Origin: a virus
Reading direction: 5' to 3' (one strand)
IMG/VR virus record: IMGVR_UViG_3300024520_000307
Coordinates: 1 to 32,819 of that record
DNA length: 32,819 bases
Below the pieces are notes generated by a model, which was given only the letters and a program-made list of their open reading frames with translations, did no database searches and had not been told where the DNA came from. Below, piece by piece: positions 2,662 to 31,406 of this stretch (position 1 is the first letter of the stretch; every line of letters starts with the position of its first letter). The translations under genes and the position numbers were made by a program.

Positions 2662-5600
2662 CTATAGCCCCTTCCGACGTGCTGCTGCTGCCTCCTTCGC
2701 CTTTTGGCCAAGGCTGTAATATACCGAGTACGCTCTAAGTGTGTCTTCGTCCATTTTCTTGATCACATCAAGCGGTGCGTACATATGTTCAAACCTTCTC
2801 ATGCCACGCTTGCCAGACAATTGCTCTTCAAGCATCTTTCTGGCAGCACGGTTATGGGACCTAGCCACGTCAATCTCTGCGAATTTAGCCCCCATAACCG
2901 CTGGCCCAAGACGGGTCACCCAGTTCTGCATGGTGGCATCTTCGCCCCAGAGTGGCTTACGGGGGTCGGTCACTGTACGGGCTGTACTGATCAACCGGCT
3001 GATTGGCGACCGGTTCAGGATAGCATCCAGCACTGGATCAACTTCCAGCGGCTCCATGCTTCCTCGGGGGCCCTCGCCCACCCTGCCTAGCTGTGTCTGT
3101 ATGTTTGCTATGGCCGTCCCAGCAGGGCTGGTCTGCTCTCTCAGGGGCCTGCCAGAGTAAAGGCTGTGACCTGACCCCCCCTCCCAGATCGCCTGAAGAA
3201 TCGGGTGCAACCTTCCACCAGCCGCTGCCAAGCCTCGCTGGAAAGTATCAAGTGGATCAACCCCGGGCCGGAGTATCCCCAATACGTCTTCAGCACCACC
3301 AAGCAATGGGCTCAGGCCGGTAAGGAACTGTTGCTGGCCCTCTGAGTCTTCCCCCCCGATAGGAATGGCAATGCTCTGGGCAATATCATCTGGCAGCAAC
3401 TGATCCTTTGTGGACTCGCGGCGAATTCGCCCCACGCCCTTGATCATCTGTGGCAATGCACCGCCCGGTCGCTCGGCCATGACCTCCACAACGAACGGGA
3501 TCTGGCGACGTGTAAAGGAGTAGAACGGGATGATCCGACGCATCACGTTTCTCTCAAAGCCAGTCAGGGCACTGTAATCTACCTGTGCCAGCTTCACCTT
3601 TCGGAGAGCCTCGGCAACGGTGTACCCCTGCTTACGGAACCCAAGGTATCCTGAGATACGGACGAGGTTTTCAATGTACTCATTGGACAACTCACCGGCT
3701 GCTGCTGGCCGCCATGTCGACTCGGTACGGCCACCCACCCCGCGTATGTTCCGGATGTCCCAGTATTGGCTGTGCCTGCTAGGCACCTCTGGTGGCAGGG
3801 TTTTGAACACATCGTCCGTTGCCTCAACACCCAGCGGGTCTACGATTCGCTTTGCCCCCTCACGCACCTTGACTGTGCGTGGACCAGTGGGCTTCTCGGG
3901 AGCCAGCTTCTGCCACCACGCGGGTGATACTAGCGGGAAGGCAGCATCCTTGGGCCGCATCCCCGGAATGTTTTCCGCCACGCCCTCGGCCATGCCAGCC
4001 TGACCGACGAACTCTGCCCGGGTCTGGTACTTGCCGACCAAGTTGCCAGCCCACACTTCTTCAGCCAACCGACGGGTGGCCTCAGCGTCCGTCATGCCCT
4101 GAAAACCGGGGACATCATTGGCAATACCCTTGATTGTCTTGCCGTTAATCATGGCGTGGGCTTGCTTCTGAGGCATGAAATACTTCATGAAGCCGACCTG
4201 CTTGGGGTCGCCAGCACCAGCGTAGACGTTGGACATCAGGGCACTGAAGTAGTTACGCCAGCCAAACGCAGGCCATGGACTCGTGACAGAGCCCTTCCAC
4301 ATATTGGTGTAGTAATCCCACCAGTGCTGGGCACCCTTGATCGCGTCATTCGCATCCGCCGGATCGGAGTATGAGCGGAGATACCGCCCTACGTCATCAG
4401 CCAATTCCTTTGGCAGCACGAGGTTGTCAAGGATCTGTAACTCAAAGTCCTTGGGCATTTTGCCGCCAGACTCCACAGCGTTGGCCACATCGTTCCCGTG
4501 CTTCTGCCAGAGATCCTTCAGCACAGCATGGGTGTTGGGCGTCATGTGACCCTGCTGAAGGGCCATATCGGAACCTGCCTTATCAAGGCTCATTACCTCG
4601 TGGAGCTTTCGGGATATCAGGGACGGTGCCTCGTCCTTGTTCACAATGAGCCACGAATTCAGCACGTGCCTCAGTGTTGTGGAGCCAGCGGCTGGAAGCG
4701 ACGACGCCGCTACAGCGTTAGCCACAATCAGGTTAGTAGCGGTCTCGGCTGCCGTGGCAGCCCTGATCGTATTGATCATGTAGTCCCGCACCGACTCCAA
4801 GGGGTTCAGCTTGTAGGCCGGAACGACTTCTGCTGCACGGCGCGGGTCAAGGTTACCGACCCAGCGAGAGAGCTTGTTGAGGATCGGGTCCTTGTTGCCC
4901 TCATACCACTCCCTCAGGCTGGCCGGGACAACACTCTCCTTGCTGAAGTAGTCTGCATCCAGACTAAGTTTGATCTTCTTGATGGCCTTGCTCTGGCTGT
5001 GGGGGTCAGCGGGGACCCGGCGAAGCAGGCCGGAAATATCCCCGTCTACACTCATGTCAATCAGAACATCTGTGCCGCCGGGGATATCTTTAATATCCCG
5101 TGGGAGGGCATGTGGATTAAACGTCCCCACCGCCTTTTTGCGAGCCATGTTCATGGCCTCGTCAGGGAACGTGTGCAGCGCCCGGGGGAAATGCTTGATG
5201 AACATATCATCCAGTATGTCCATATCAAGGCCAGCCTTGGTGGACATCTCCCGGGCGCGGCCCATCATGGCCCTGATGGCGTCAATGTCGTCTTCTATGC
5301 CTAGACCTTTAAGGTTGTCCGGCAACTCGCCCTTGGACCAATCCCCCTGCTCCCAGATGAAATCCGTTGTCCCCTCCTTGGCACCCGGAACCTCTTTCTT
5401 CAGGATCTCAAACTGTCCCTCAGCGTACCTCCGCACTGCCCGGGCATTGTCTGTGGCCAGCTTCTTGGCACCTATCTCATCGAGGCCACTGGTAGCACGC
5501 ATGATGTGGTCTGCGTCGAACACGCCTATGTCATCAAACTTGCTGAAGACTGGGGCAAAGTGTTCAAGGACAGCCTGTTCAACCTCTTGTACCGCCTGTA

Positions 5601-6813
5601 AAGTCCTTGCAGACCTTACCTGTCCTGTCTCTGAGAGCATCTCGCCAGCAGCCGGGCTCATCTTCTGGGCCACGTAGCGGGGCAAGGCACTGTACCGCAG
5701 GGAGTGCCCAAGGTTATCCATTGCCACGGCGACCTTCTCACCCATCCCGCCCTTGGTTCCAAGGGGCGTGCCCATGAACCGGGCCACGCTACCGAGCGGC
5801 TCCTTGGCGATGTCTGCAATCTCTCCGCCACTGGGACCAAGAGCTTGGTTCAGGCGGGTCTCCAGATCCTGAACCCGGAGAGGATCTCGCGGCTTGGTGT
5901 CCACCCCCCCAGTCTTACCAAGGACATCATCCCATATCCCCCCGGGCTGGCTCTGAAGGAACTCTTGCGCCTTCTGTGGGGTCATGCCCGCAATCTCATC
6001 TGCTGACTTGCCAGCCTTCTGAAGAGCAATCCGCATCTGCTGGGTTATCTGCTGGCCCGGTGCCCTTAGTGCTGCGCCGGTACTGCCTATCCCCTCGCCG
6101 CCAAGGCTGCCCAGTTCCTTGAGAATGCGGTTCGCCTCCATCGGGCCCTCAGCCAGTGGAGTGAGGAAGTTCCCCTTCGCATCTTTTTTCAGCAGCCGCT
6201 CAAGCGTCATGTGCTGGAGGGCCTGACGCTTGCCCATCCCGACCTTACCAAGGCCGAGAGCCTCGGGCTCGTATTTGGCCATACGGTAGAACTCGTCCAG
6301 TAGGCCAGACTTCTTGAGAGCCTTGCCTGACTTGGAGAGTGCCGGGAGGATTCCTCCAGTGACGTAGGAGAGTGGATCGGTGAGTACCTCAGCGCCGAAC
6401 CCGGCTACGTCGCCCCAGTCCAAACCGGGAGTGTTCTTTTCCAGTACACCCATGCCCTCAAGCAATCCACGACCACCGACAAACTCGCTGGGATCAGTAA
6501 TCCCAAGATAGTCCGTGGGAATAGGAAGGACGTTGAGCATCTCCCGTGGATTGCCGCCCAGAAGGCCGTATAAGGCCCGCTGTGGCTTCTGGAAGACGTT
6601 TGCCACCACCGAGAGCATTGACAGTGGGATCTGAGACATCTGCCTCAGGACCGACGCCCGCTCCTCAGAGGTATTAAACTCCGAGAGGTAGTCCTCGATA
6701 GTAGGTCGGGCCGCACGGGCAGACTGGACCCCCGTGGGCTGGATACCCATTAGCCGGAGATTCCTGTTGATATCTGCCAGTGGGTCTGCGATCTGTCCAA
6801 GCGGGAGGGGCAT
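2662..6813 (-). CDS. Very large protein (1383 aa), putative internal or ejected virion protein
   Basis: A 1383-residue mostly helical protein and the second largest in the window. Residues about 55-80 form an amphipathic stretch (I-P-L-S-M-L-S-V-V-A-N-V-F). Residues about 130-165 carry a G-F-G-A-E-V-L-T-D-P-L-S-Y element that recurs, as I remember it, near the start of large phage proteins. Near residues 1070-1110 is F-E-R-N-V-M-R-R-I-I-P-F-Y-S-F-T-R-R, a sequence I associate with very large phage 'polyvalent' proteins of marine podoviruses (possibly the LPD38 region). No lytic transglycosylase or polymerase motif was seen. Position after the tail genes and size suggest a protein packed in the head and ejected with DNA. 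The in-frame upstream stop fixes the start; its ribosome site is weak. Confidence 0.8.
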   Translation of the reverse strand: MPLPLGQIADPLADINRNLRLMGIQPTGVQSARAARPTIEDYLSEFNTSEERASVLRQMSQIPLSMLSVVANVFQKPQRALYGLLGGNPREMLNVLPIPTDYLGITDPSEFVGGRGLLEGMGVLEKNTPGLDWGDVAGFGAEVLTDPLSYVTGGILPALSKSGKALKKSGLLDEFYRMAKYEPEALGLGKVGMGKRQALQHMTLERLLKKDAKGNFLTPLAEGPMEANRILKELGSLGGEGIGSTGAALRAPGQQITQQMRIALQKAGKSADEIAGMTPQKAQEFLQSQPGGIWDDVLGKTGGVDTKPRDPLRVQDLETRLNQALGPSGGEIADIAKEPLGSVARFMGTPLGTKGGMGEKVAVAMDNLGHSLRYSALPRYVAQKMSPAAGEMLSETGQVRSARTLQAVQEVEQAVLEHFAPVFSKFDDIGVFDADHIMRATSGLDEIGAKKLATDNARAVRRYAEGQFEILKKEVPGAKEGTTDFIWEQGDWSKGELPDNLKGLGIEDDIDAIRAMMGRAREMSTKAGLDMDILDDMFIKHFPRALHTFPDEAMNMARKKAVGTFNPHALPRDIKDIPGGTDVLIDMSVDGDISGLLRRVPADPHSQSKAIKKIKLSLDADYFSKESVVPASLREWYEGNKDPILNKLSRWVGNLDPRRAAEVVPAYKLNPLESVRDYMINTIRAATAAETATNLIVANAVAASSLPAAGSTTLRHVLNSWLIVNKDEAPSLISRKLHEVMSLDKAGSDMALQQGHMTPNTHAVLKDLWQKHGNDVANAVESGGKMPKDFELQILDNLVLPKELADDVGRYLRSYSDPADANDAIKGAQHWWDYYTNMWKGSVTSPWPAFGWRNYFSALMSNVYAGAGDPKQVGFMKYFMPQKQAHAMINGKTIKGIANDVPGFQGMTDAEATRRLAEEVWAGNLVGKYQTRAEFVGQAGMAEGVAENIPGMRPKDAAFPLVSPAWWQKLAPEKPTGPRTVKVREGAKRIVDPLGVEATDDVFKTLPPEVPSRHSQYWDIRNIRGVGGRTESTWRPAAAGELSNEYIENLVRISGYLGFRKQGYTVAEALRKVKLAQVDYSALTGFERNVMRRIIPFYSFTRRQIPFVVEVMAERPGGALPQMIKGVGRIRRESTKDQLLPDDIAQSIAIPIGGEDSEGQQQFLTGLSPLLGGAEDVLGILRPGVDPLDTFQRGLAAAGGRLHPILQAIWEGGSGHSLYSGRPLREQTSPAGTAIANIQTQLGRVGEGPRGSMEPLEVDPVLDAILNRSPISRLISTARTVTDPRKPLWGEDATMQNWVTRLGPAVMGAKFAEIDVARSHNRAARKMLEEQLSGKRGMRRFEHMYAPLDVIKKMDEDTLRAYSVYYSLGQKAKEAAAARRKGL

Positions 6814-9600: not shown

Positions 9601-12600
9601 TCACCACGTCGTTGTCTGGTAACCTTGAGTCTGCTGGCCTGATGATTGTGGGTTGTAGCTCTGTCCGAGTAGCGTCTGTGCGCCCGGAAGACCGCTCTCC
9701 ATCATAGCCATTCCCTCTGGCCCGCTAAAGACTGATCCCAGCAGAGACTGGAGAAGAGGGTTGGCAAACTGCTGCATCATTGCGTCTGTGATTCGCTGGA
9801 ACTCCTGTGACCGGAAGGCACGCTTGTACCAGTCGTCTGCCGTGGTGCCCGCTAATCCGAGCATCTGCTGGAACTGCTGGTCAGATAGGCCACGACGCCA
9901 CGCTTCGTTCTCTATCGCTGTCTGGTAGGGGATCATCGCCTCTGCTGTTCTGGCCCCTGTCAGTGACTGCACAAATGGGTCCACCATGTGGGCGTATTCT
10001 GTGCCTAGTCCAGATGATATTCCACGACCTGCCCATCCTTGGTCCTGTCTCGCCTGCTCTATCTTTTGGCGGGCTTGCTCGTATTCCACGTTGACTCGGC
10101 GCTGCGCCCAACCGGGATCGATTCTTGGGCGGGTAACTTCATCCCATGAGAGTGGGGTTGAGACCTCTATCGCGTTCTCAAGTCCCATATTGTCTGCCAG
10201 TGTGGGCTCCTCTTCATCGTCCCTGTGGGCACTTATCCAGCCCTGCGCGGGGTCCCACGTAGCAATATCTGTCCCCTGCACTGGATCAACAACCTCGTTG
10301 TTCATGTTGTATGTCGTGCCGTCGGCCTTCACGACAAAACGATTTCCATTGGCATCCTCGACCAAGCGATCAGCGACCTGCTCAACTTGGTCACCGCCTT
10401 GTTCGGCCCGGATAATATCCTCAGCAGAACCCTGATCCACTTGGCCTTCCTGCCCCGCATCGGTCACAACAGGAGCATCAGGGATTCCCGTCTCGCGATC
10501 CGCCTCTGCATCCGGGCGTCCAACCGTCACCCCCGTACCTCGCTCAGGAGCACCCTGATCTACTACCCCGGTGTCTTGATCTGCTACCCCGGTGCCCTGA
10601 TCTGCTGCACCACGAATAACATTCTCAGCAATAAAGTCCTGAGCACTCGGCAAGCCCGTACCCTGCTGGTCATCACGGATAACGCCCTCTACAGCACCCT
10701 GATCAACCGGTGTTCCGGTATCCACAGGCTGAGTGACGCCAGTGTCTACTGTGGAGCCATCGTCAACCTGCCCCGTAACGTCCTGTGCGGGGTCCTGATC
10801 GACTACATCGACCGCACCGCCCTCCACCACCTGAGCGTCCTCAACTGGCTTAGCCTCTCCCTCAGCCAACGCAGCGGCCAATTCCTCACCGGGACCGGTT
10901 TTGGCAGTCTGTTCGAGCTTGTTGTTTTGCAGCCACCTCCTGTGCTCAAGGATGTCCCGGGGCATCAGGGTCTTGCTGTCGGTCAGGGACTTCATGCCCT
11001 CCTTGCTTAATTGGGCGAATCTCTGCTTCCCGGCGTCCCCGTGAGCCTCATAGGTATTCCGGATCTGGTGATAAATACTCTTTTCGCCAGAGGTTAAACC
11101 CCGGAACCAGTTTGTGTGGGTGTTCATCACACCATCCACACTCAATGAGGCTTTAGGGGGGGTGGGGACCCATGCCGGTCGGCCCGCGTCGTGCATCCCC
11201 TTGTTCCACGTCCACCGAACTCCAGATGCACCCCGAGTCTGATCCGTGAACCCCTGACCGTTCTCAAGCGTTCCAGCATCTATCTGGCTCTGGAACCGGT
11301 CCCGGTTAGACTGAGCCATTCCCGGTGGCCAGTCAAATCCAGCACCAGCGGCTACCTTCTGGTCGAAGGTCATGGTGTTTACGTTTGGCGGGCGCTCACC
11401 ATGCTTGTACCAGTACGCCATGTTGTCGGCACCAGAGCCCCTCTTCTTGAGGTCATCCAAGAGGGCCTGAGCCTGAGCCTTCGATGTTAGGTTTACCCGA
11501 TCCCGGGTGTGTGGCTGCTGACCCTGCCACTTCAGGATGAAGTTGTGCGCCCCCCAAGGCTCCTCCCGAATGGCGTTCGACAGGCTGCTGATATCAGATC
11601 GGTATAGCCTGTTTTTTTCCCTGTCTTCCCGAAACTCGGGGATGTCCGTTAGGTTGATCATCCCGTCTTCAGTAAGCTGTTCCCCATGTCCGCCGGGACG
11701 ATCAGGCACTCTTGAGTGCCCCACCTGTTTTCCGAATACATCGAACCTCGGAACTAATTCGCCTGACGCTGGCAACTCGCCACGGAACTCCCAGCCGTCA
11801 CCAGTGTTGTAATGACCCGGCGTTACGGCTTCGGCAGGAGCGGCTACCTCTTCGGCTGGAGCGGCCTCCGCCACAGGTTCTGCCACAGGTTCTGCCACAG
11901 GTTCTGCCACTGCACGCTCGGCGCGAAGCCTTGCGCTTTCTTCCTGACCACGCCGCCATTCGTCAAGCAGTCGCTGCCTCTCCTCGGGGGTCTGGTATAC
12001 GTCCTGAATAATGCCGGGACTAATTGCGTTGGCCGCTTCAACCAATGCCGACTTCTGCCGATCATCCATCTGGCTGTCGGCCTGAGCCCGGAATACCGAA
12101 TCCGTGACATACCTGTTCAGATAGTCAGGATCAGTTACATCGGCAGCCTCACCCTCCGCCCGATCTTCAGTGGTCGATGCCGCGCCGCGAATGATCTCCT
12201 CTGGGTCAGCGGCGGCAACGCCTGCTGCCGGTTCTGATCCGCGTGCGGCCAACCGGGCGTAATGGTCCCACTGTTCTCTGCGGGTTCTAGGCCCTCCGCC
12301 CGGACCACCAAATTCAGCGTCCCAAAAGTTATGACTCTCGAACGGGGGGGGACCCATCCTCTCGCGCGCCTCCCGCGAGCTAATCGGCCTACCCTCTAAT
12401 TCCTGCAACCGGTTTGCATATTCCCCCAATGACTCCCCCTCCAGTGGAGGGTTGCGCCCGATCCGCCCGTAGTACATCCCCAATGATTCCCCGGCCTGCT
12501 GAACTTTCCCCTCCTCAATGGCCTTCGCCCGGGCATCGGGATCATCCGCCCTCTGTGCCTCACGCTGGGGCGTGACACCCTTGGCTTGCTGCTCTGCCAC

Positions 12601-15318
12601 CTGCTGGTCGATAAAGTTCTTCTGCCAATCCAGCGGCACAAGGCCCTCTCCGCCCTGAGCCTCCCACGCCTTCTGTGCGTCCGCGGCGCGACCCTCACGT
12701 GCGTCTATTTCGTCTTGCCGCTTCTTAGTCAGTGCCGCACCGGCTGCGTCTCTGGCCTGCTGCTGGAGATCCCTGTTGTATTTCGCAAGCCTTCCTGCCT
12801 CCATGGAAACGCGCTTGTAATCCGGCTCACTAAGACCGCCAAAGCGACTCGCGAAACGGTCATAGCTTAGCCCCAGATTCCGTGCAGCCGCTTCGAGACT
12901 AGAATCAACCTGACCTGCCTCCACCGGGGCGGCAGCTTGCGCGTCACGAATGATTCCCTCTGGGTCAGCGGCCACGTCCGCCGACACAGCACCGCGTGTT
13001 CCAACTGGCTCACCCTGTACGCCAAGCCTCTCTGCATTAGCTTTGTCTTCTGCGGATAGTGAGTTCCAGTCCACCCACCTCATGCTGCCAGCGTTGCGTG
13101 GCGATATGCCGGGCATAAACTGGTCTAGATCCCGCTTTCGGGAAAGAATTATTCCGCCCCCCTCGAACTCCCGGTAGGCGATTAAATCGTTGCCCTCGCT
13201 GTCCTTGGCTGTGACAAGCGACATGTCTTTGGGGTCGTAGGTGGTCACGTCCCTGTAGTGAATGCCATCGTCATCAGCAGACCACCCCGCCGCAGGCGTG
13301 TCGACCGCTGGCTGGTCGCCAAGGACGCCAAGGTCACCTGCTACCCTCTGGGTAAACTCCACCCCTTCCTGCTGGCTGAGGAAATCCGTTGTTAGGAACG
13401 GATTCTTCATGAAGGTGTCGTTCTGCTGAGAGGTATACTTCTGGCGGAATGCCTCGAATGCTGCGTACCTTACCTCTTTGTCAGCGTGCTTCAGGCCATG
13501 AGCTATATCGTTGGCAGTCCACTGGGTTCCAGCGATACCGCGAAGCTGTTGTGCATCCTGCTCCTGCGACCAATCGCGGCTTAGGGCAGCATCCTCAGCC
13601 GACACCTTGCCCTGCAAGCCCTGCGTAATTGAGTCCCCCACTTGATCCTGACGAATGATCTCCTCTGGGTCAGCGGCGGTTACATCTGCTGCTTGTGCTG
13701 TCGTAGCTGTCGTAGCCGCACCCGGCTGCCAGCCCTGTGGGGCAAGTCCCTTGCCACCCTGATTCTCCCACGCCTGCTGTACCTCTATCGTCGGTGGTGT
13801 CGGAGCCGCCGCCTGCGGAACCGCCTCAAACTGCTCGTCAGGGGGATATACAACTGAGCCATCAAGGTTTGTGGTAAGCCGCAAGTCATCCTTCAACTGG
13901 TCAATTCCCAGCCCCCAGTCGTGCATCATTATGATTGACTTACCGGTACTCCTTTGTGTCCCCGCATAGAGATATTCCTTATTGGGGTCTAGCTTGCTTT
14001 TCCAGTCAAAGTTCTCCCACTTGTTGGGTGGCTCCCGACGCTTAATCATTACCAACGTGGCCTGCTTCTTGGCCTGCTGCGCGGTCGGCCTCGCTCCATG
14101 GCGAGTACCTCCTCCGGGGAGGCGGGTCTGAAGGTGTTTCTGGAAATCATCGGACTCAAACCACCCGCTTAACTCCTTATCATCCATGCCCAAAATACGG
14201 TTAAGCTGCTCGTCTGTGGCGTTCTCCCACGCTTGACCGCGTTGCTGCTCAGATGTCGCATCCATGTTCGGAAAGAGTTGCCGTAGGACACCGGGAAATC
14301 CTCTTCTAACAGCAGCAGCCTTGTCTACTGCCGCTTTCTGGGCCTCTCTCTCGGCTGCCCACTCTATACGGCGTTTCCAGTCAGGCACACCGTCGCGGTT
14401 GTTATCCATCGATTCGGGCGTGAAGCCTGCATCAGTCCACCTATACCGAGTGCCATCCGCCTTTACAACTAACTGACCCGGCTTCAGGTGGCTCCTCGCC
14501 TCGTGTGGTATCTGCTCAAAGCTCAAGGCGGCTTCAAGATCGGCATGACCCTGAACACCGGAAACCTGCTGTTGCAACGTGGCCGCTGCCGCCGCCGCCT
14601 CGTCCTGCTGGGCCTTTGCGGCTGCCGCGATCCCCGCCTGACGAGCATCTTCCGCAGCCTTGTCTGCTGCCGCCTTCTGGGACTCCTGCTCTGCCCGACG
14701 GGCCTGATACGCCCCGGTCACGAGGTCGTTGTATTCCTTAGAATTGGCCGTTTGGCCCGTGACCCGGTTCACCATATAGCTCTGACCGCCATACGTGTAG
14801 CCTGCCCACTCTTGGGGATTATACGCCCTCTGTGATACGTCTTGGCCACCATACGCCTGAGATAATTGCTGGGCGTACTGCTCGTGTGTTAGCGTCTGGC
14901 CAGTTTGCGGATTATAGAATGTAGAGGAGAGATTCCCGGCCTTGTCGCCAACATCCCGCCGCTGCCACTGGGCAGGATCTTGTTGTTGTGGCTGGGTGGC
15001 TGCGACAGCAGGCGTAGTGGTTTGGGTGGCTGCAACAGCAGGTGTGGTGGTCTGGGTAGCTGAGACAGCAGGTGCAGTAGTCTGCTGGCTGCGAATTATG
15101 CTCTCCGCCGGAGCAGATGCTGCTGGGGCAGATACAGCCGGAGCCGCTGCTGCAACCTCATCCGGCTTCTTCCACGTGCCATCCAGTTGGCGAACCAATC
15201 CCTGAGCCCGCTTCTGAGCATCCGCAATCATATTCTGGCGATTCCGGTCGCTGGCAGACTGCCGCGTGACCCACTTCTTTGTTATCGGATCGAAGACTTT
15301 ATTTGGGTCGGCTGCCAT
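9601..15318 (-). CDS. Giant repeat-containing protein (1905 aa), putative internal virion protein
   Basis: At 1905 residues this is the largest gene in the window. It alternates disordered Ala/Gln/Thr/Pro linkers with short folded-looking segments. Seven copies of (A/P/V)-E-x-(I/V)-I-R occur at about 71-76, 551-556, 786-791, 1039-1044, 1543-1548, 1564-1569 and 1632-1637, mostly preceded by A-D or G. Other internal repeats: A-W-E-x-Q-G-G-x-G-L (516-525 and 884-893), G-E-S-L-G-x-Y-x-x-R (943 and 961), V-V-K-A-D-G-T-x-Y (284 and 1662), a 10-residue T-P-A-V-A-A-T-Q-T-T triplet (about 80-109) and A-E-P-V (about 1138-1149). Residues 305-313 (D-N-N-R-D-G-V-P-D) look like a thrombospondin-3/EF-type calcium loop. 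The helical C-terminus (1735-1861) resembles that of the 371-residue protein. No enzyme motif was seen. Confidence 0.8.
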   Translation of the reverse strand: MAADPNKVFDPITKKWVTRQSASDRNRQNMIADAQKRAQGLVRQLDGTWKKPDEVAAAAPAVSAPAASAPAESIIRSQQTTAPAVSATQTTTPAVAATQTTTPAVAATQPQQQDPAQWQRRDVGDKAGNLSSTFYNPQTGQTLTHEQYAQQLSQAYGGQDVSQRAYNPQEWAGYTYGGQSYMVNRVTGQTANSKEYNDLVTGAYQARRAEQESQKAAADKAAEDARQAGIAAAAKAQQDEAAAAAATLQQQVSGVQGHADLEAALSFEQIPHEARSHLKPGQLVVKADGTRYRWTDAGFTPESMDNNRDGVPDWKRRIEWAAEREAQKAAVDKAAAVRRGFPGVLRQLFPNMDATSEQQRGQAWENATDEQLNRILGMDDKELSGWFESDDFQKHLQTRLPGGGTRHGARPTAQQAKKQATLVMIKRREPPNKWENFDWKSKLDPNKEYLYAGTQRSTGKSIIMMHDWGLGIDQLKDDLRLTTNLDGSVVYPPDEQFEAVPQAAAPTPPTIEVQQAWENQGGKGLAPQGWQPGAATTATTAQAADVTAADPEEIIRQDQVGDSITQGLQGKVSAEDAALSRDWSQEQDAQQLRGIAGTQWTANDIAHGLKHADKEVRYAAFEAFRQKYTSQQNDTFMKNPFLTTDFLSQQEGVEFTQRVAGDLGVLGDQPAVDTPAAGWSADDDGIHYRDVTTYDPKDMSLVTAKDSEGNDLIAYREFEGGGIILSRKRDLDQFMPGISPRNAGSMRWVDWNSLSAEDKANAERLGVQGEPVGTRGAVSADVAADPEGIIRDAQAAAPVEAGQVDSSLEAAARNLGLSYDRFASRFGGLSEPDYKRVSMEAGRLAKYNRDLQQQARDAAGAALTKKRQDEIDAREGRAADAQKAWEAQGGEGLVPLDWQKNFIDQQVAEQQAKGVTPQREAQRADDPDARAKAIEEGKVQQAGESLGMYYGRIGRNPPLEGESLGEYANRLQELEGRPISSREARERMGPPPFESHNFWDAEFGGPGGGPRTRREQWDHYARLAARGSEPAAGVAAADPEEIIRGAASTTEDRAEGEAADVTDPDYLNRYVTDSVFRAQADSQMDDRQKSALVEAANAISPGIIQDVYQTPEERQRLLDEWRRGQEESARLRAERAVAEPVAEPVAEPVAEAAPAEEVAAPAEAVTPGHYNTGDGWEFRGELPASGELVPRFDVFGKQVGHSRVPDRPGGHGEQLTEDGMINLTDIPEFREDREKNRLYRSDISSLSNAIREEPWGAHNFILKWQGQQPHTRDRVNLTSKAQAQALLDDLKKRGSGADNMAYWYKHGERPPNVNTMTFDQKVAAGAGFDWPPGMAQSNRDRFQSQIDAGTLENGQGFTDQTRGASGVRWTWNKGMHDAGRPAWVPTPPKASLSVDGVMNTHTNWFRGLTSGEKSIYHQIRNTYEAHGDAGKQRFAQLSKEGMKSLTDSKTLMPRDILEHRRWLQNNKLEQTAKTGPGEELAAALAEGEAKPVEDAQVVEGGAVDVVDQDPAQDVTGQVDDGSTVDTGVTQPVDTGTPVDQGAVEGVIRDDQQGTGLPSAQDFIAENVIRGAADQGTGVADQDTGVVDQGAPERGTGVTVGRPDAEADRETGIPDAPVVTDAGQEGQVDQGSAEDIIRAEQGGDQVEQVADRLVEDANGNRFVVKADGTTYNMNNEVVDPVQGTDIATWDPAQGWISAHRDDEEEPTLADNMGLENAIEVSTPLSWDEVTRPRIDPGWAQRRVNVEYEQARQKIEQARQDQGWAGRGISSGLGTEYAHMVDPFVQSLTGARTAEAMIPYQTAIENEAWRRGLSDQQFQQMLGLAGTTADDWYKRAFRSQEFQRITDAMMQQFANPLLQSLLGSVFSGPEGMAMMESGLPGAQTLLGQSYNPQSSGQQTQGYQTTTW
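10555..10610. repeat. 21-base tandem repeat (2.7 copies)
   Basis: Near-identical 21-base units encode repeated D-Q-(G/D)-T-G-V-(A/V) within the acidic linker at residues about 1573-1590 of the 1905-residue protein. Unit length keeps the frame. It lies between the sixth and seventh I-I-R motifs. Confidence 0.8.
11871..11906. repeat. 12-base perfect tandem repeat, three copies
   Basis: CCACAGGTTCTG occurs three times without change on the plus strand and gives A-E-P-V units on the minus strand in the 1905-residue protein. Perfect identity suggests slippage-driven recent expansion. Confidence 0.85.
12188..12215. repeat. 28-base dispersed repeat copy 1 (encodes A-D-P-E-E-I-I-R)
   Basis: This 28-base stretch is identical to 13652-13679 and nearly identical to 12947-12974 (a few changes). 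Each copy encodes the A-D-P-E-x-I-I-R motif. Such DNA-level identity over 0.7-1.5 kb points to recent duplication or gene conversion. Confidence 0.85.
12947..12974. repeat. 28-base dispersed repeat copy 3 (diverged)
   Basis: Matches the other two copies except at a few positions; encodes A-D-P-E-G-I-I-R around residues 784-791. Confidence 0.75.
13652..13679. repeat. 28-base dispersed repeat copy 2
   Basis: Identical to 12188-12215; encodes the motif around residues 549-556 of the 1905-residue protein. Confidence 0.85.
14991..15080. repeat. 30-base tandem repeat, three copies
   Basis: Three adjacent 30-base units with a few substitutions encode the decapeptide repeat T-P-A-V-(A/S)-A-T-Q-T-T near the N-terminus of the 1905-residue protein, just after the first I-I-R motif. 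Confidence 0.88.
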
Positions 15319-15320
15319 AC

Positions 15321-16529
15321 TTATGCGCCCCCACGGAATGGCGATGGGGAAGCTCCCATCATCGGAGTTTGACCAAGCGGTGGAAATGCACTCTGCTGGT
15401 TTGTTAGCCAGTTCGGCGTAGAGCCTCTGGTCGGCACACGGCCCGGAGACGCAGCTCCCGGCTGCTGGCCGCGCATACTAGAACCCATTGGGTCCGGGGG
15501 CATCAGTAAGTCTGCTACCTGCGTGGAAGAAACCGGGCCCGGCGGGGTGGGTGTGAATGCCGGACCCGGTGTGGGTGGAGCCGGATAACTTGTTGGTACA
15601 GCGGGTGTAGTGGGCGTCGGTATTGCCCCTGTTGGTTCGTAGTCCCGAATAATTACTCCGCCGGGAGGATTTGTGCCCGGTGTTGGGCTTACTGGTGTAC
15701 TTGCTGTGGGTCCCGGTATTCCTACCGGGGGGCCACTGGGAGAAACTGGCGGTGCCGTCGACACCGGAGTGTCCGGAGTGCCCGGAACGCTGGTCGGCAT
15801 CGGAGGGACTGGCATCGGTGGGACAGGCATCGGAGTGTCCGGAGCGCTGGTCGGCTCCGCTGGGAATGGCATGTCCCCGGTTCCTACCGGAGTTGTCGGG
15901 GACGGTGCAGGTGCCGGAGCGGGTGCCGGAGCGGGTGCTGGTGCGGGAACTGGTGCGGGAACTGGTGCCGGAGTAGGTGTGGGCGTAGGCGCTGGGGCGG
16001 GTGCAGGTGCTGGAGAGGTGTCTGCCGTGGTGTCACCCTCACGCTTTGCCAGCGCCTCGTCGTACATCTGCCCGCCTTCCGTGGGATTGTAACTCTCAAA
16101 CTGTTCACGGGATGCCAGTCCACCATAGCGTTCATTTGCTGCTGACACTCCACTATCGGCTGCCGTCTGTGTGTACCCGGCCCACTGGGGCGCTGGCATT
16201 GTGGAACCCATGTTTGTAGCAGCCACATCCCGTGGCTTTACCTGCGGTCCTGCTGGCGTATTTGTCCGCCCTACCTGTGGGGCGAACATGTTCGGAGCAC
16301 CCGGCCTCGAACTGGCGACCGGAGTTGCTGCCGCGCGAGGAACCTGAGGCGAATAGGCCCCAGACATTGCGCCAGCCAATCCTTCCCCGGTCTGCACATT
16401 TGGGTCGGCCACCTGAGCCTTCCGTCGCAGCTGCTCCACCGGGTTCATAAAGCCGCCGCCCTGAGACGCCCATGTGGCTGGCTGGGTGCCATTCAACATC
16501 CCGTATGAACTTCCTACCCGTGTAGCCAT
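15321..16529 (-). CDS. Pro/Ala/Thr-rich protein (402 aa), putative virion linker or fibre
   Basis: A 402-residue protein. Residues 1-170 are polar with scattered motifs, including P-Q-W-A-G-Y-T (114-120), echoed as Q-E-W-A-G-Y-T (169-175) in the 1905-residue protein. Residues 173-212 are an almost pure P-A/P-T/P-V dipeptide repeat, and 213-335 stay Pro/Thr/Gly rich, with V-I-I-R-D at 292-296 that recalls the I-I-R motif of the next protein. Such sequence forms an extended, stiff, disordered rod. The function is unknown; a spacer, or a fibre attached to a partner through its ends, is plausible. It starts just after the 371-residue gene with a poor ribosome site (TTAGAGCA) and ends 2 bases before the 1905-residue gene, so coupling is likely. 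Confidence 0.75.
   Translation of the reverse strand: MATRVGSSYGMLNGTQPATWASQGGGFMNPVEQLRRKAQVADPNVQTGEGLAGAMSGAYSPQVPRAAATPVASSRPGAPNMFAPQVGRTNTPAGPQVKPRDVAATNMGSTMPAPQWAGYTQTAADSGVSAANERYGGLASREQFESYNPTEGGQMYDEALAKREGDTTADTSPAPAPAPAPTPTPTPAPVPAPVPAPAPAPAPAPAPAPSPTTPVGTGDMPFPAEPTSAPDTPMPVPPMPVPPMPTSVPGTPDTPVSTAPPVSPSGPPVGIPGPTASTPVSPTPGTNPPGGVIIRDYEPTGAIPTPTTPAVPTSYPAPPTPGPAFTPTPPGPVSSTQVADLLMPPDPMGSSMRGQQPGAASPGRVPTRGSTPNWLTNQQSAFPPLGQTPMMGASPSPFRGGA
15894..16013. repeat. Pro-Ala/Pro-Thr coding microsatellite
   Basis: An irregular 6-base repeat (GGTGCC/GGAGCG/GGTGCG on the plus strand) encodes the P-A, P-T and P-V run at residues 173-212 of the 402-residue protein. Slippage-prone, so its length probably varies among relatives. 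Confidence 0.85.
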
Positions 16530-23649: not shown

Positions 23650-24203
23650 TATTCGCTTCCCTTCTTGCCGTGCTTGGCTATTACTCGTTCACGTACTTCG
23701 TTGATCAGCTTGGGCTTTCGCTTGACCTTCTCTCGGGTCTCAGGTTCCGTTGCCAGTATCCCCCTAACATAGTTGTCGCAGATGTCTGAAGCCAAGACCT
23801 TTCTCTTGGGCTTCTGTGGCGGGGACTGATAATTCACTGATCCTGTGCTGGAAAGTCCCTTCGCCTTGCAGGCCGCTATTACGTCATCTCGGCCAGATAC
23901 CCACGCCATTGGGTCATTCGGCTTGCCAAGCCCACCCTTGTACACCTTGCCCTGAGTGGAAATCCCCGCCTTCTTGGCTGCGTCATGAAGGCCCTCAGCA
24001 TTTTTTAAGAACATGCTGTCAGCCCAGCTATGCGTTCCCTCTAAAAAAGCCCTGTCTGTTCCCAGTGCGCCCGGTGGACGGCGCTGGGCCAGCATTGCGG
24101 CGAACCCCGACTTATTGCCATCCTCAATTAGCTGGTCATAAAAGTCGACACAGCCCAGTCGCTCACATTCGGCCCGATGCCTATCTTGGTGCGGATCTGT
24201 CAT
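23649..24203 (-). CDS. Hypothetical protein (184 aa) after the portal gene
   Basis: A 184-residue basic protein with a helical C-terminus (I-N-E-V-R-E-R-V-I-A-K-H-G-K-K). Residues about 18-60 (V-D-F-Y-D-Q-L-I-E-D-G) and 70-105 (N-A-E-G-L-H-D-A-A-K-K-A-G-I) look folded and helical. C14 and C19 lie near the N-terminus, but there is no zinc pair. The start shares bases with the portal stop (TAATG) with AGGGGAGA upstream, so the two are co-translated. It may be a portal-associated or internal head protein; that is inference only. No family recognised. Confidence 0.72.
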   Translation of the reverse strand: MTDPHQDRHRAECERLGCVDFYDQLIEDGNKSGFAAMLAQRRPPGALGTDRAFLEGTHSWADSMFLKNAEGLHDAAKKAGISTQGKVYKGGLGKPNDPMAWVSGRDDVIAACKAKGLSSTGSVNYQSPPQKPKRKVLASDICDNYVRGILATEPETREKVKRKPKLINEVRERVIAKHGKKGSE

Positions 24204-26389
24204 TATTCGTTCTCCCCTGCACCTTTCTCACGCATGAACCTCATCTGTAACTGGTGAGATTCCTCGGACTGCTTGACCTCCTGCTGATGCTTCTCCTGAT
24301 CCTGCTGCAACTCCTGCTGGTGGGCAGCGGCATCCTCCTGACGATCCTGCTGCTTTAAGCCAGACTCGGATTGCTTGAGTTGTATGTCAGTCTGCTTCTC
24401 CTGCATCTCAAGCTGCTTCATCTGCATATCCATCTGCATCCCAACCTGTTTCATCTGGGCCTCAATCTGCTCAGGGCTGGGGCCCTCTTGCGGTGGCGGA
24501 GGAGGCGGCGGTTGAACCATGTACCTTGCGGGATCAAGGTCGTTGGCTTTGGACCAGTCCTCGATCAATGCGTTGTATGGGTCCATCATCCCCTGCATGG
24601 CAAACTGCTGAAGCGTTGGCATAGCAATCTGTGCGAACTCGTTAAGCTGACGTACCCGGTTGACCTTATTCGGCTTGCGGGCCGTGCCTGCCTCAATCCG
24701 GTAGTCATAGTCGCGGATCGTCTGCTCAAAATCCTGAGTCTTGATCTGCGTGTCCCAGATGTGGGCACCCATCTTGCCAAGCACCGGCTTTATCTCTTCG
24801 CCGGTCAGCATCCACTCGGCAGCCTCCATCTCCTTCATCGCAGCCTGACCGAGCCAGTCCTCTACCCGGCTCGACATGTCGTCCGGCCTGACGCTCACAT
24901 TGTTGCTGCGAACCTCGGCTTCCGTGGCACTTCTCATCTGTGTGGGCCCAGATAAGCCGTATACAAGCTCAGTCAGTCCAGTTCTCTTGTCGATCATGTC
25001 CAGCACCTGCCGGACCATGTTCCAAATTTCCACGTTGAACGACGGGGCATCGAGAAAAGAAACAACGTCTTTGACGCTACGACCGAATATCTCGCTGATC
25101 TCGATGTGCGTGTAGGGACCAAGACCAGACTTGATCTGGTCCTGAATCTCCGCACCGGCTGCCTTGGCTATGGCCACATACGTGGTGCTTGACGCTGCTA
25201 CCTTGTCTGCCAAGAAACTCATGCACCAGTTGACAAACCGCAGTTCCCCGATGGCTGGCTTGATCATGCTGATCGGCCAAACTTCCTTGGGCTTGTCATG
25301 GAAGTGAAGCCGGGAAAACGGCCAGCCGCCATCAGTCCAGAAGGGGATAGGCCACTGGGCTCTGGAGAATACAGTCTCGAAGTCCTCCTCCTCCAACGCC
25401 TCTGAGGGGAGGTTGAGCGGGAAGGGGATGTCCTCGGAGATAGCAAGGTAACAGAAGTCTCCTAGCTGGGCCCAGTCATACCCCTTCTTGGTTTCCCGGG
25501 AGTCGCTGTTCCTCAACCTGTCGCCAAAGCCAGCCTTGGAGTACACCTGCCAATACTCAAGCAGGTCAAACGTCTCGCCGAGCCTCTTCTCCTTGCTCGT
25601 CTTTTTCCGCCCCGCTGAATATGTGCCACCTTGGCTGTGCAGGGACTCAAGCGTTCCCGTGAGCTTTCCTTCCAGACCGAAGATCCGCTCCACCTGCCAC
25701 ACGGGGTGCACGACCTTGCGGGCTACCCATTGAATGTCTTCCCAGTATTCGGCGTCAGGATCAATTACCAGATCGTCTACCGATACAAAGTAGCTCTTGG
25801 GATACCGTGTCAGAGAACCCTTCGGCTGATACATCTCCGTCCACAATAAGCTCATGCCCTTGATGATCGCCTCGTTGATCCCAAGTCTGGCCTGCGTCTT
25901 CTTGTCCGCCTCAAACTGCAACCAGTTGAGATAGTGCTCCTTGAGGCTGGCGTGGCACCGACTCACCTCCTTCTCCGTCTTCTCCTCGTCCTCAAACATC
26001 TGCCAGTATTGGGCATGGGCTGGCTGGCTGGGATCAAGCCCGATGGCCTCAGGAGTGATCGTGGGACTCATTCGGGGACTGACCTGAATTCGAGGGTTCC
26101 GGTGATACAGCACCGGGCCAAATAGGGCCACAGCCTCAAACACACGATTGACAGTCATCCGAAAAGTGGGGAGGGCCCCCTGTGCTTCCTTGTCCAGAAA
26201 GCCCCCCGGGGACTTCGCGTAAGCCCCTTTCCACATCCAGTCATGAGAGCCGTCAAAAAACTTCATCGCCTCCTCGGCATACTTGCCGAAGCGGTCATGC
26301 TTCTGTTTCTTGGCGTCCTTGATCTTCTGCATCCACTGAGCGCATATCGCGTTCATTGGGTGCGTTCCATCATTAAGATTGAGCGGCAT
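24203..26389 (-). CDS. Portal protein
   Basis: A 728-residue portal of podovirus length. Portal proteins form the dodecameric ring through which DNA enters the head and to which the tail joins. The fold signature is visible as a helical N-terminus, a central alpha/beta clip and wing with F-G-P-V-L-Y-H-R-N-P-R (about 90-100), D-D-L-V-I-D-P-D-A-E-Y-W-E-D (about 205) and a long helical crown. The last 95 residues (about 635-728) are Gln/Met/Glu heptads, a predicted coiled coil, longer than in many portals. It lies two genes after the large terminase, as in most tailed phages. The start directly abuts the previous stop, with AAGGAGAG about 4 bases upstream of the ATG. Confidence 0.9.
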   Translation of the reverse strand: MPLNLNDGTHPMNAICAQWMQKIKDAKKQKHDRFGKYAEEAMKFFDGSHDWMWKGAYAKSPGGFLDKEAQGALPTFRMTVNRVFEAVALFGPVLYHRNPRIQVSPRMSPTITPEAIGLDPSQPAHAQYWQMFEDEEKTEKEVSRCHASLKEHYLNWLQFEADKKTQARLGINEAIIKGMSLLWTEMYQPKGSLTRYPKSYFVSVDDLVIDPDAEYWEDIQWVARKVVHPVWQVERIFGLEGKLTGTLESLHSQGGTYSAGRKKTSKEKRLGETFDLLEYWQVYSKAGFGDRLRNSDSRETKKGYDWAQLGDFCYLAISEDIPFPLNLPSEALEEEDFETVFSRAQWPIPFWTDGGWPFSRLHFHDKPKEVWPISMIKPAIGELRFVNWCMSFLADKVAASSTTYVAIAKAAGAEIQDQIKSGLGPYTHIEISEIFGRSVKDVVSFLDAPSFNVEIWNMVRQVLDMIDKRTGLTELVYGLSGPTQMRSATEAEVRSNNVSVRPDDMSSRVEDWLGQAAMKEMEAAEWMLTGEEIKPVLGKMGAHIWDTQIKTQDFEQTIRDYDYRIEAGTARKPNKVNRVRQLNEFAQIAMPTLQQFAMQGMMDPYNALIEDWSKANDLDPARYMVQPPPPPPPQEGPSPEQIEAQMKQVGMQMDMQMKQLEMQEKQTDIQLKQSESGLKQQDRQEDAAAHQQELQQDQEKHQQEVKQSEESHQLQMRFMREKGAGENE

Positions 26390-26850: not shown

Positions 26851-28599
26851 CTATTCTCCCGTAGGCCCAAGGTTGATATAAGTCGAGGCTGGCCCTCCAC
26901 CTCTCATTACTGTGTTCATCCGGCTTTGAGATGCTCGCCGCTTCCGCTCTCCCAGTATCATCGCCACTCGGCTCTTGTTGACGACGTTCGATTTTGGCTT
27001 CACGTATTTTAGCCCATGAGCCACAGCATATTCTAGCGTTTCTATCGCGTGACAGTTAGACCTGCGATTGCCCTCGTCCTGTATGTATCCATTGACGACC
27101 TTCTTCTTGAACCGGGAAAACTCCCGGCACAGGTTGGGGCACTTCTCTGTCACGACCAGCATCTTTGGAGAACCATCAGACTGGATGGACAACCACTCCC
27201 TCATCTTGATCTCACGGCCTGACACATCATCGCTGCCGGGTATGAAGTTGTGACCCGTCTCAACACTGTACACCCGCCTCTTCTCCAACTCTGATGAGTA
27301 TTGCCTGCGGGGGAGCAGGCCACTTCCAATGTCCCTTAATCGGCCACCGTGAGCATCAATAATAAACGACTGGAATGACTGGCCATTGGCCTTTACTCCC
27401 ACGTACTCACCAAACTTCGTGGCGGTGCACTGCTGAATGTACAGCTCGTCATACACCACCGTCTGGGACCCAATGTGCGGCGGGGGCACGGCATGGAATG
27501 TTACCGCGCACACAGCGTGCCCGGGATCTACCACCATGTAACGGCACCAGTCGAGGGGAGGGACACCCTTGTTCTCAGTGATGATTTTCTGAACCTGCGT
27601 CCGTGGCTGCGACTGTCGGATTGCCCCATGAAGATCCTTGGAAAATGTGGGATACATCAGGATGCTGTCTGTAACCATCTCGCCGAGGGCACGCTTGCGA
27701 TATTCATCCTCGCCTCGCTTCCGCCACCGCTTGATGTTCTCCTGCTTGACCTGCTCAGGCATAAACGGGTTGTCGAATATCGTCGCCCTGATTACTACCG
27801 TACTGGGATGCTCGTCCTTGATCTCATCCTCTGCCCGCTCAGAGAGATTTATCAGGGCGTCATTCTTTGAGTGCGGCAGGGCAGACCAGCGGATCTTGCC
27901 ATCACGCATCGAAAGCCGGGCGATCATCTCGTCATACCACTCAGGTCGCTCCAGATCCTCGTCGATGTGCACAAGGTCTGCCTGAAACCCTTGTGTCGGT
28001 TCACCCTTGCTACCCATCGCATAGATTACCCAGCCGTTGTGAAGCTCACATATCTCAAAAACATGCTGGGCTCTCTTCTTCCAAGCAAAGTTCTTGATGT
28101 ACCTCGGGGGAATCAGTGGGGGTGCTGGCTTGGTCTCGTCCTGACGGGCCCAATCATCCTTCTCCCATGGATGCCACGCCCGCCACTCGTTGGTTACGGC
28201 ATCCTTGATAATCTTGAATGCCCCGGCCCGGAACAGGTACTTGTGAATCACCCTGCCGATATGGCCCTCGTCCATTCCAAGACAGACCATTACCCCGTTC
28301 TCCTCCGGGTACTTGCCGTGCGGATCTTGTCCGGTGGCTGCCCGGGCATCCTCCACAAAAGCCGCGAGACTTTTGCCGACTTGATTCCCGGCCTGAAGAA
28401 GAACCTCCTTCGCCTTGCTGGAATGAAACCGCTCCTGAAAGGGCAGGGGTTCATACAGGCGCAAAGCCTCCAGTCGGCGACGGGATCTCTCTGCGTAGAG
28501 ACGCCGCATCTCCTTCTTCTGCTGCTCTGTTACACCACCTTGGTATGCGACCTCAGGTATCTGAATCGCTTCCTGCGGTGGCTTCTTCTTCTTTGCCAT
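26851..28599 (-). CDS. terL: Terminase large subunit (ATPase-nuclease)
   Basis: A 582-residue packaging motor protein. The ATPase half has a Walker A, A-G-N-Q-V-G-K-S (70-77), and a Walker B, L-V-H-I-D-E (209-214), with D213 and the catalytic E214. The nuclease half shows Y-M-V-V-D358-P-G-H, V-V-Y-D-E385 and I-I-D415-A-H, which fit the RNase-H-like metal-binding acids. The third acid is likely near the C-terminal I-E-T-L-E-Y (about 535), where other terminases have theirs. The protein cuts concatemers and pumps DNA into the prohead at the expense of ATP. The overlap of 47 bases with the upstream gene and the Lys-rich M-A-K-K-K-K start support co-translation. A weak GGAA site lies 6 bases before the ATG. 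Confidence 0.93.
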   Translation of the reverse strand: MAKKKKPPQEAIQIPEVAYQGGVTEQQKKEMRRLYAERSRRRLEALRLYEPLPFQERFHSSKAKEVLLQAGNQVGKSLAAFVEDARAATGQDPHGKYPEENGVMVCLGMDEGHIGRVIHKYLFRAGAFKIIKDAVTNEWRAWHPWEKDDWARQDETKPAPPLIPPRYIKNFAWKKRAQHVFEICELHNGWVIYAMGSKGEPTQGFQADLVHIDEDLERPEWYDEMIARLSMRDGKIRWSALPHSKNDALINLSERAEDEIKDEHPSTVVIRATIFDNPFMPEQVKQENIKRWRKRGEDEYRKRALGEMVTDSILMYPTFSKDLHGAIRQSQPRTQVQKIITENKGVPPLDWCRYMVVDPGHAVCAVTFHAVPPPHIGSQTVVYDELYIQQCTATKFGEYVGVKANGQSFQSFIIDAHGGRLRDIGSGLLPRRQYSSELEKRRVYSVETGHNFIPGSDDVSGREIKMREWLSIQSDGSPKMLVVTEKCPNLCREFSRFKKKVVNGYIQDEGNRRSNCHAIETLEYAVAHGLKYVKPKSNVVNKSRVAMILGERKRRASQSRMNTVMRGGGPASTYINLGPTGE

Positions 28600-30257: not shown

Positions 30258-31406
30258 CTATGCAAGCGCTTGCAACTTGAAGAAGTTCCTCGGTGAGGAG
30301 AACTTCATGTTGGAGAGCGTGCTAACAACGGCATTGAACGACTGCGAGTGGATGTCGTACTCAGGACCTTCACTGCGGAGCAGGGAATCGTCCATCGACT
30401 TCAGCTCGATGTTGTCGTAGTTCAAACCATAACCAACGCCACTGGCAATAGCGGCTTCCCAGCTCACTTCCACACCGTCGAAGTTCAAGACGTTCTTGAA
30501 ACCGAGGGCACGGAGATTGTGCTCACTGGAAATCTGAATGCGCTCATTGTCATCAAGCAGGTTCAACAGATCCGTGTAAAGGTCACGAGCCAACAGGATG
30601 TTGGTAATCTGACCATTCTTGGAAGTGTTTCGCTGCGAGTTGATGATCGCGTAACGCATCGCTTCGTCGCCCTGCTTCGCCCATGTGTCAGCAGAACCAC
30701 CGAACTTGCTGGTCGTGTAGTTGACCACAAGCGGGAGCCAGAAATCAAATTCTGAATCCGCAATGCCGTCAGGCCACACCAAACCAGATTCCTCGTCACC
30801 ACCGTAGTAGCCCGGCGTTGTCAGCAGGCCAGCGTAGGTAACGCTTTCCGGATAACCGACGTAATCAGCGGCATTGGCTGTACGACCGGAGTTTGCACCA
30901 GAGGTGTCAGTCGTATCGAACGTCTTGCTGATGGTGCCGAACAAGGACTCCAGCCCGTGCCACGATTGCTCGTTGCCACTGGCTGCGCCATTGACGTAAT
31001 ACTCACCGCCGAGGCCCTCAGTGATGCTCGTCTCAAGACGCTCGACAAAGTTGTCGAATACCTTGATGACGCCCTCTGGGCCACGGTTCGAGCGGAACTC
31101 ACGGTAGTACATGGTGTCCGCGACTTGGTAGCCACGATACTCCAGATTCGCCGTCTTCCACAGATTCCGTCGTGAAAAGTTGCGTGCAGTTTCCCCAGTG
31201 TTACCCTCGATCTTGTGCAAACGATACTGCACGGGCCAATCGAAGCCTTCACCACTATTGTTGTAGTTCACTCGACCGGCAGCTTCGAGCAAGGCACCCA
31301 TCTGGAAATTGCGGAGCATAGACTCCTCAACTTCTCGAATGTGCTTTGCAAGAGTAGTTGCACTGGTACGGGCAAATGCTACAGGATTAAAACCTTTGTA
31401 GGCCAT
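30258..31406 (-). CDS. Major capsid protein (HK97 fold, podovirus type)
   Basis: A 382-residue protein between a scaffold gene and a decoration gene. It begins with a helix (A-R-T-S-A-T-T-L-A-K-H-I-R-E-V-E) and then shows W-P-V-Q-Y-R, F-S-R-R-N-L-W-K-T-A-N-L-E-Y-R-G-Y and F-R-S-N-R-G-P-E-G-V-I-K-V, which match the N-arm, E-loop region and spine helix of P22/HK97-like coats as I remember them. The length fits a gene 5-like coat. There is no inserted domain. GAGGGG about 8 bases upstream of the ATG is a good site, expected for a very highly translated gene. Confidence 0.88.
   Translation of the reverse strand: MAYKGFNPVAFARTSATTLAKHIREVEESMLRNFQMGALLEAAGRVNYNNSGEGFDWPVQYRLHKIEGNTGETARNFSRRNLWKTANLEYRGYQVADTMYYREFRSNRGPEGVIKVFDNFVERLETSITEGLGGEYYVNGAASGNEQSWHGLESLFGTISKTFDTTDTSGANSGRTANAADYVGYPESVTYAGLLTTPGYYGGDEESGLVWPDGIADSEFDFWLPLVVNYTTSKFGGSADTWAKQGDEAMRYAIINSQRNTSKNGQITNILLARDLYTDLLNLLDDNERIQISSEHNLRALGFKNVLNFDGVEVSWEAAIASGVGYGLNYDNIELKSMDDSLLRSEGPEYDIHSQSFNAVVSTLSNMKFSSPRNFFKLQALA
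30261..30274. repeat. 14-bp perfect palindrome at the capsid gene's 3' end
   Basis: TGCAAGCGCTTGCA covers the last codons of the capsid gene (L-Q-A-L-A). It could form a weak hairpin on the mRNA, lower decoration output relative to capsid protein, or be codon chance. Confidence 0.35.

Follow-up and report, generated by a model that had tools for sequence, protein, structure and literature searches.

A clade-specific peptide tag on variable late phage proteins and its possible role in virion docking

We have identified a clade-specific short linear tag on the variable late proteins of a group of uncultured phages, and its existence is well supported. Seven copies occur in one 1905-aa protein of the window, by which we mean the whole 32,819-nt stretch analysed here (IMG/VR record IMGVR_UViG_3300024520_000307). 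The peptide is kept amid changing flanks and recurs in variable late proteins that are unrelated to one another, whereas conserved proteins hardly contain it, which is the pattern of a docking tag. We put at roughly 0.5 the probability that it links variable proteins to one conserved phage partner and so recruits them to the virion; it is by inference that we speak of docking, of entry into the virion and of a particular partner. The giant protein and the motif copies lie as follows.

9601..15318, minus strand: 1905-aa protein with seven motif copies, no Cys and large low-complexity linkers
15091..15108, minus strand: copy 1, AESIIR, residues 71-76 (pattern match)
13651..13668, minus strand: copy 2, PEEIIR, residues 551-556 (pattern match); the G001 and G002 homologues retain E-x-[IV]-I-R-Q-D
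12946..12963, minus strand: copy 3, PEGIIR, residues 786-791; repeats copies 2 and 4 at the DNA level
12187..12204, minus strand: copy 4, PEEIIR, residues 1039-1044; repeats copies 2 and 3 at the DNA level
10675..10692, minus strand: copy 5, VEGVIR, residues 1543-1548; 41-nt repeat (73%) in common with copy 7
10612..10629, minus strand: copy 6, AENVIR, residues 1564-1569 (pattern match)
10408..10425, minus strand: copy 7, AEDIIR, residues 1632-1637 (pattern match); 41-nt repeat with copy 5
9604..10281, minus strand: C-terminal region, residues 1680-1905, conserved in the G001, G002 and G005 giant proteins
15642..15656, minus strand: VIIRD (GGVIIRD) in the 402-aa neighbour, read from sequence

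Exact matches to [APV]E.[IV]IR were found at residues 71, 551, 786, 1039, 1543, 1564 and 1632 of the minus-strand protein, precisely where the original prediction had placed them, and every [IV]IR of the protein falls within a copy. Composition does not explain the array, as the expected number of copies is 0.006 under residue shuffling and 0.03 (maximum 1 in 2000) under dipeptide-preserving shuffling. The permuted controls D.HHR, K.HHR, E.HHK and E..HHR (H = I, L or V) have no match in the protein, and a reduced-alphabet motif search gave no clear signal for it, whereas the exact-residue search did. A related peptide had also been proposed in the 402-aa neighbour: VIIRD is indeed present at its residues 292-296 but lacks the E, and may be a degenerate copy.

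The seven copies are not seven independent events, a point that the original prediction had missed. The copies at 551, 786 and 1039 have about 26 nt of near-identical DNA in common and descend from DNA-level duplication, and those at 1543 and 1632, with a 41-nt repeat at 73% identity, probably arose likewise. Thus, the array reduces to about four independent groups, which differ from one another in codons and flanks, and part of it reflects duplication within the gene.

The motif is also clade-wide rather than specific to the 1905-aa protein, which the original prediction had likewise missed. We surveyed about 140 related IMG/VR contigs, gathered through the terminase, capsid, portal and w835 tail-region protein. 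The 1905-aa gene lies on the same strand as, and downstream of, the genes for these four proteins, and is thus encoded among virion genes. Names such as terminase and scaffold come from sequence reading and position, the exceptions being portal and w835 (PHROG; w835 is annotated as a virion structural protein) and capsid (weak fold match). The reference genes of the window are these.

24203..26389, minus strand: portal protein (PHROG), the basis for the split of relatives into near and far
26851..28599, minus strand: large terminase (named from sequence), used to recruit related contigs
30258..31406, minus strand: major capsid protein; a weak model, structurally closest to HK97-type capsids

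The AlphaFold model of the capsid reaches a pLDDT of 51. At about residues 336-348 this protein (30258-31406 minus) carries a conserved, tag-like stretch, SMDDSLLRSEGP (DESLLRS in L084), whose resemblance is probably coincidence. Relatives, one far relative among them, conserve a 1383-aa protein (window 2662-6813 minus), which has a weak 116-residue match to Cellulosimicrobium phage DS1.

When the window protein is excluded, E.[IV]IR occurs 22 times in structural-strand ORFs of the relatives against 3.0 expected, and once in opposite-strand ORFs (1.06 expected). Expected counts are based on residue composition, and some inflation of the counts is possible from homologues that fall below the k-mer filter. 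Across 611 non-redundant ORFs E.[IV]IR is enriched in every size class, and permuted controls are mostly near expectation; E.HHK (2.4-fold) and EHHR (2.0-fold) are mildly enriched, as is to be expected of helical proteins. The coding frame contains 47 sites (1.4 expected), and the five other frames together yield 3 against 2.8. All six Arg codons are used for the R of the motif. As the codons vary, selection acts at the level of the peptide.

An unbiased enumeration of all four-residue patterns up to width six (about 707,000, the window protein left out) places E..IRN second (19 versus 1.1 expected) and ED.IR next, with EE.IR, PE..IR, EQ.IR and E.IIR also in the top nine, and the consensus reads [DST]-[PA]-E-[DEQN]-[IVLM]-I-R-[NQSG]. 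The top-ranked pattern in late proteins is a different one, DP.TG (31 versus 3.6 expected), seen for example in window 9601-15318 minus as FYNPQTGQTLTHEQY and YMVNRVTGQTANSKEY; it is probably a small beta-hairpin mini-domain, Y.N..TG...(T/S)..EY, repeated in giant proteins.

The refined consensus derives from the very proteins in which it was counted; E.[IV]IR, by contrast, was taken from the window, and the broader forms were checked in a hold-out, which alone is free of that circularity. It comprises the ORFs of new contigs from a portal scan, fetched afterwards and divided into near (portal identity of 58% or more) and far (52% or less) relatives. The near set is small, with 25 new ORFs, and holds 7 matches to E[DEQN].IR (0.18 expected) and 3 to E.[IV]IR (0.07 expected), with controls at expectation (D..IR, 1 versus 0.74; E..LR, 1 versus 1.18). 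Far relatives (115 ORFs) show no clear enrichment, with 1 versus 0.84 for E.[IV]IR and 4 versus 1.6 for E[DEQN].IR.

The sites lie in ORFs that vary from phage to phage and occupy slots between conserved genes: portal to w184, w184 to w396, w190 to w191, before the scaffold, and w325 to w1383, the last of which holds the giant proteins. Only three matches fall in the twelve conserved core families, which total about 55,000 residues: two are in portal and one is in scaffold. Each of the 13 near relatives whose late region is long carries one or more late-protein matches; in a few phages (e.g. G008 and G009) some of the matches are in portal. Most sites are internal, with a modest excess within 20 residues of either terminus (14 of 62, 6.7 expected) that includes MTPEEIIRQ, EEIIRGNRQ-end and EDLIRSAR-end in other proteins. 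Many tagged proteins are small and Pro-rich, are encoded between portal and tail genes and have no recognised effector domain.

In 19 comparisons, some of which are reciprocal, between homologues that align at 25-80% identity, the motif retains its E in 79%, its I in 68% and its R in 74%; outside the motif the corresponding figures for these residues are 50, 57 and 48%, a modest difference. We rejected flank disorder as a mark of the sites, which are not set apart from their host proteins in this respect; the hydrophobicity of their flanks is just a little below that of the remaining sequence of these proteins.

The giant protein itself is hardly conserved. Pfam, PHROG and PADLOC gave no match to it and no enzyme domain is recognised; direct search with peptide patterns and in GenBank phages found no relatives of it, and the terminase, capsid and portal have no match among 50,697 GenBank phage records. 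As a pointer to the host, the lone genome match is a 3-kb contig in a gammaproteobacterial MAG and is possibly a binning error. Residues 421-586 recur in G001 and G002, and the conserved C-terminal region is modelled by AlphaFold as mostly helical at low confidence (pLDDT 45); neither this model nor that of the capsid is strong enough to argue for a partner. In G001 and G002 the linker before copy 551 is altered, with two residues lost, and E-x-[IV]-I-R-Q-D is retained; it is the only one of the seven copies present in their giant proteins. In a separate case, G011 encodes a 1576-aa protein with eight E.[ILV][ILV]R (0.28 expected) and no detected similarity to the window protein.

Other linker peptides are repeated in these relatives. 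At the same gene position, the giant protein of G001 (L143 8081-12700), like that of G002, holds EK[PG]RFAEVGEAA three times, and a single FAEVGEAA is present in L115. The G001 protein also has two or three copies of AGII(R/Q)K.G.(F/W)V.G(T/S)PEE, to which the N-terminus of the window protein, AQGLVRQLDGTWKKPDE, is similar.

Several giant late proteins of relatives carry recognisable domains. A 2515-aa protein (L118 3510-11057) matches cpYpsA SLOG clearly and NADAR below threshold, a 1618-aa protein (L129 979-5835) has a strong DUF7831 match, and a 1557-aa protein (L145 9953-14626) contains an FtsK gamma domain (E 9e-11), which binds DNA and could be directed at sites on the host chromosome; there is also a weak deoxyribosyltransferase match. 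Judged from sequence, the cpYpsA-SLOG, NADAR-like, deoxyribosyltransferase-like, DUF7831 and FtsK-gamma domains would fit ejected, effector-like proteins of the polyvalent kind, and the window protein has no such domain.

On the docking-tag explanation, the motif [PA]-E-[DEQN]-[IVLM]-I-R-[NQSG] would form a short amphipathic segment that binds one conserved phage partner, and variable proteins, including the giant proteins encoded beside tail genes, would thereby be recruited to the assembling virion. The 1905-aa protein, with its seven copies, may then bind with avidity or be anchored in several places. By analogy, the scaffold, portal and capsid are candidate partners. The w835 and w325 families, found only in motif-bearing relatives and absent from far ones, are also candidates by virtue of that distribution, which is confounded by phylogeny. 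From gene position only, we infer that tagged proteins enter the virion. A broader and more tentative possibility is that the internal motif addresses proteins to the virion throughout the clade, as a universal and multivalent label. The range of variable cargo would then be open-ended and would include giant proteins with host-acting domains, and a protein would join it simply by gaining a six-residue linker peptide.

A host partner is an unlikely alternative, in which the tag binds a common host protein after entry and brings different ejected proteins to one host machine. A host target would equally explain a tag on unrelated proteins, and the effector-like domains in giant proteins of relatives (cpYpsA-SLOG with a weak NADAR match, the weak deoxyribosyltransferase match and FtsK gamma) agree with it; however, many of the tagged proteins are the small, Pro-rich products of the portal-tail interval, and the motif follows the phage clade.

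We think it less probable again that the peptide serves self-association as a generic amphipathic helix or N-cap, to which helical, charged and disordered proteins have converged repeatedly. A start of D/S/T-P-E-E is a typical helix N-cap, and the mild enrichment of E.HHK and EHHR points the same way. Such a helix should not demand E first and I-R last, yet D..IR, K..IR and A..IR are not enriched in the hold-out, the motif is nearly absent from opposite-strand ORFs and far relatives have no clear excess of it.

The original prediction offered docking sites and protease sites side by side, and the docking reading is the better supported of the two, because the motif recurs in unrelated late proteins, in linkers and near termini, and E, I and R are kept where flanks change. 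As processing sites, the copies would cut a polyprotein-like giant protein into segments, consistent with their place in linkers between folded-looking segments, and prohead proteases of T4 type and of giant phages do cut after Glu. Still, cleavage at the near-terminal sites (MTPEEIIRQ, EEIIRGNRQ-end and EDLIRSAR-end) would release almost nothing, the conserved I and R come after the Glu, on the primed side, and the A-x-E rule reported for SPN3US does not fit most sites. A scan of window proteins recognised no prohead protease, several late genes being without any match. Given the terminal copies and the conserved residues after Glu, we consider cleavage sites very improbable. Least probable of all is a functionless by-product of DNA-level duplication in low-complexity linkers. 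The copies at 551, 786 and 1039, and in part 1543 and 1632, are indeed DNA repeats, and in G001 and G002 another linker motif (EK[PG]RFAEVGEAA) is triplicated. Yet E-x-h-I-R persists in the other copies, and in other phages, despite different codons and flanks; the motif recurs in unrelated proteins, and the hold-out and codon tests largely refute such an origin.

How non-structural proteins are selected for the virion is known in detail for few phage systems, T4 and P1 among them. A portable internal tag, if true, would make candidate virion cargo readable from sequence across an uncultured group and would offer a simple test for the recruitment of giant ejected proteins. More broadly, a linear motif can be discovered without cultivation by comparing fast-evolving late proteins.

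The closest parallel is the T4 capsid-targeting sequence (CTS) of IPI-III and Alt, a short conserved peptide on diverse proteins of variable genes that brings these proteins into the assembling head (PMC3012670, PMC9026906). The tag resembles it in being common to unrelated variable late proteins and nearly absent from core proteins, and in its distribution may work like a capsid-targeting sequence. However, the T4 CTS is an N-terminal propeptide removed by gp21, whereas the tag is mostly internal and occurs in up to seven copies; as it is internal, repeated and without sign of processing, we do not class it as a CTS. In P1, an N-terminal CTS sends the giant late protein DarB into the head, and the N-terminal 30 residues suffice (PMC9024508); this is a single N-terminal signal, and the sections of that paper available to us describe no repeated internal peptide of the kind found here. 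Encapsulin cargo-loading peptides are likewise short, sit on flexible linkers and bind the inside of an HK97-fold shell (PMC6668986), but encapsulins are cellular compartments with C-terminal tags, and we claim no sequence kinship between these and the phage tag.

Phage polyvalent proteins are giant, multidomain, encoded with virion genes and predicted to be injected (Iyer et al. 2017; PMC5512222), a paper in which the term 'linear motif' does not occur. The 1905-aa gene is similarly placed among virion genes, and SLOG, NADAR-like and FtsK-gamma domains occur in the giant proteins of relatives; the 1905-aa protein itself differs from the polyvalent plan of two or more disparate catalytic or binding domains, having no Pfam, PHROG or PADLOC match. 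Relative to targeting in T4 and P1, the proposed system would differ in having an internal, multivalent tag that operates without a recognised prohead protease.
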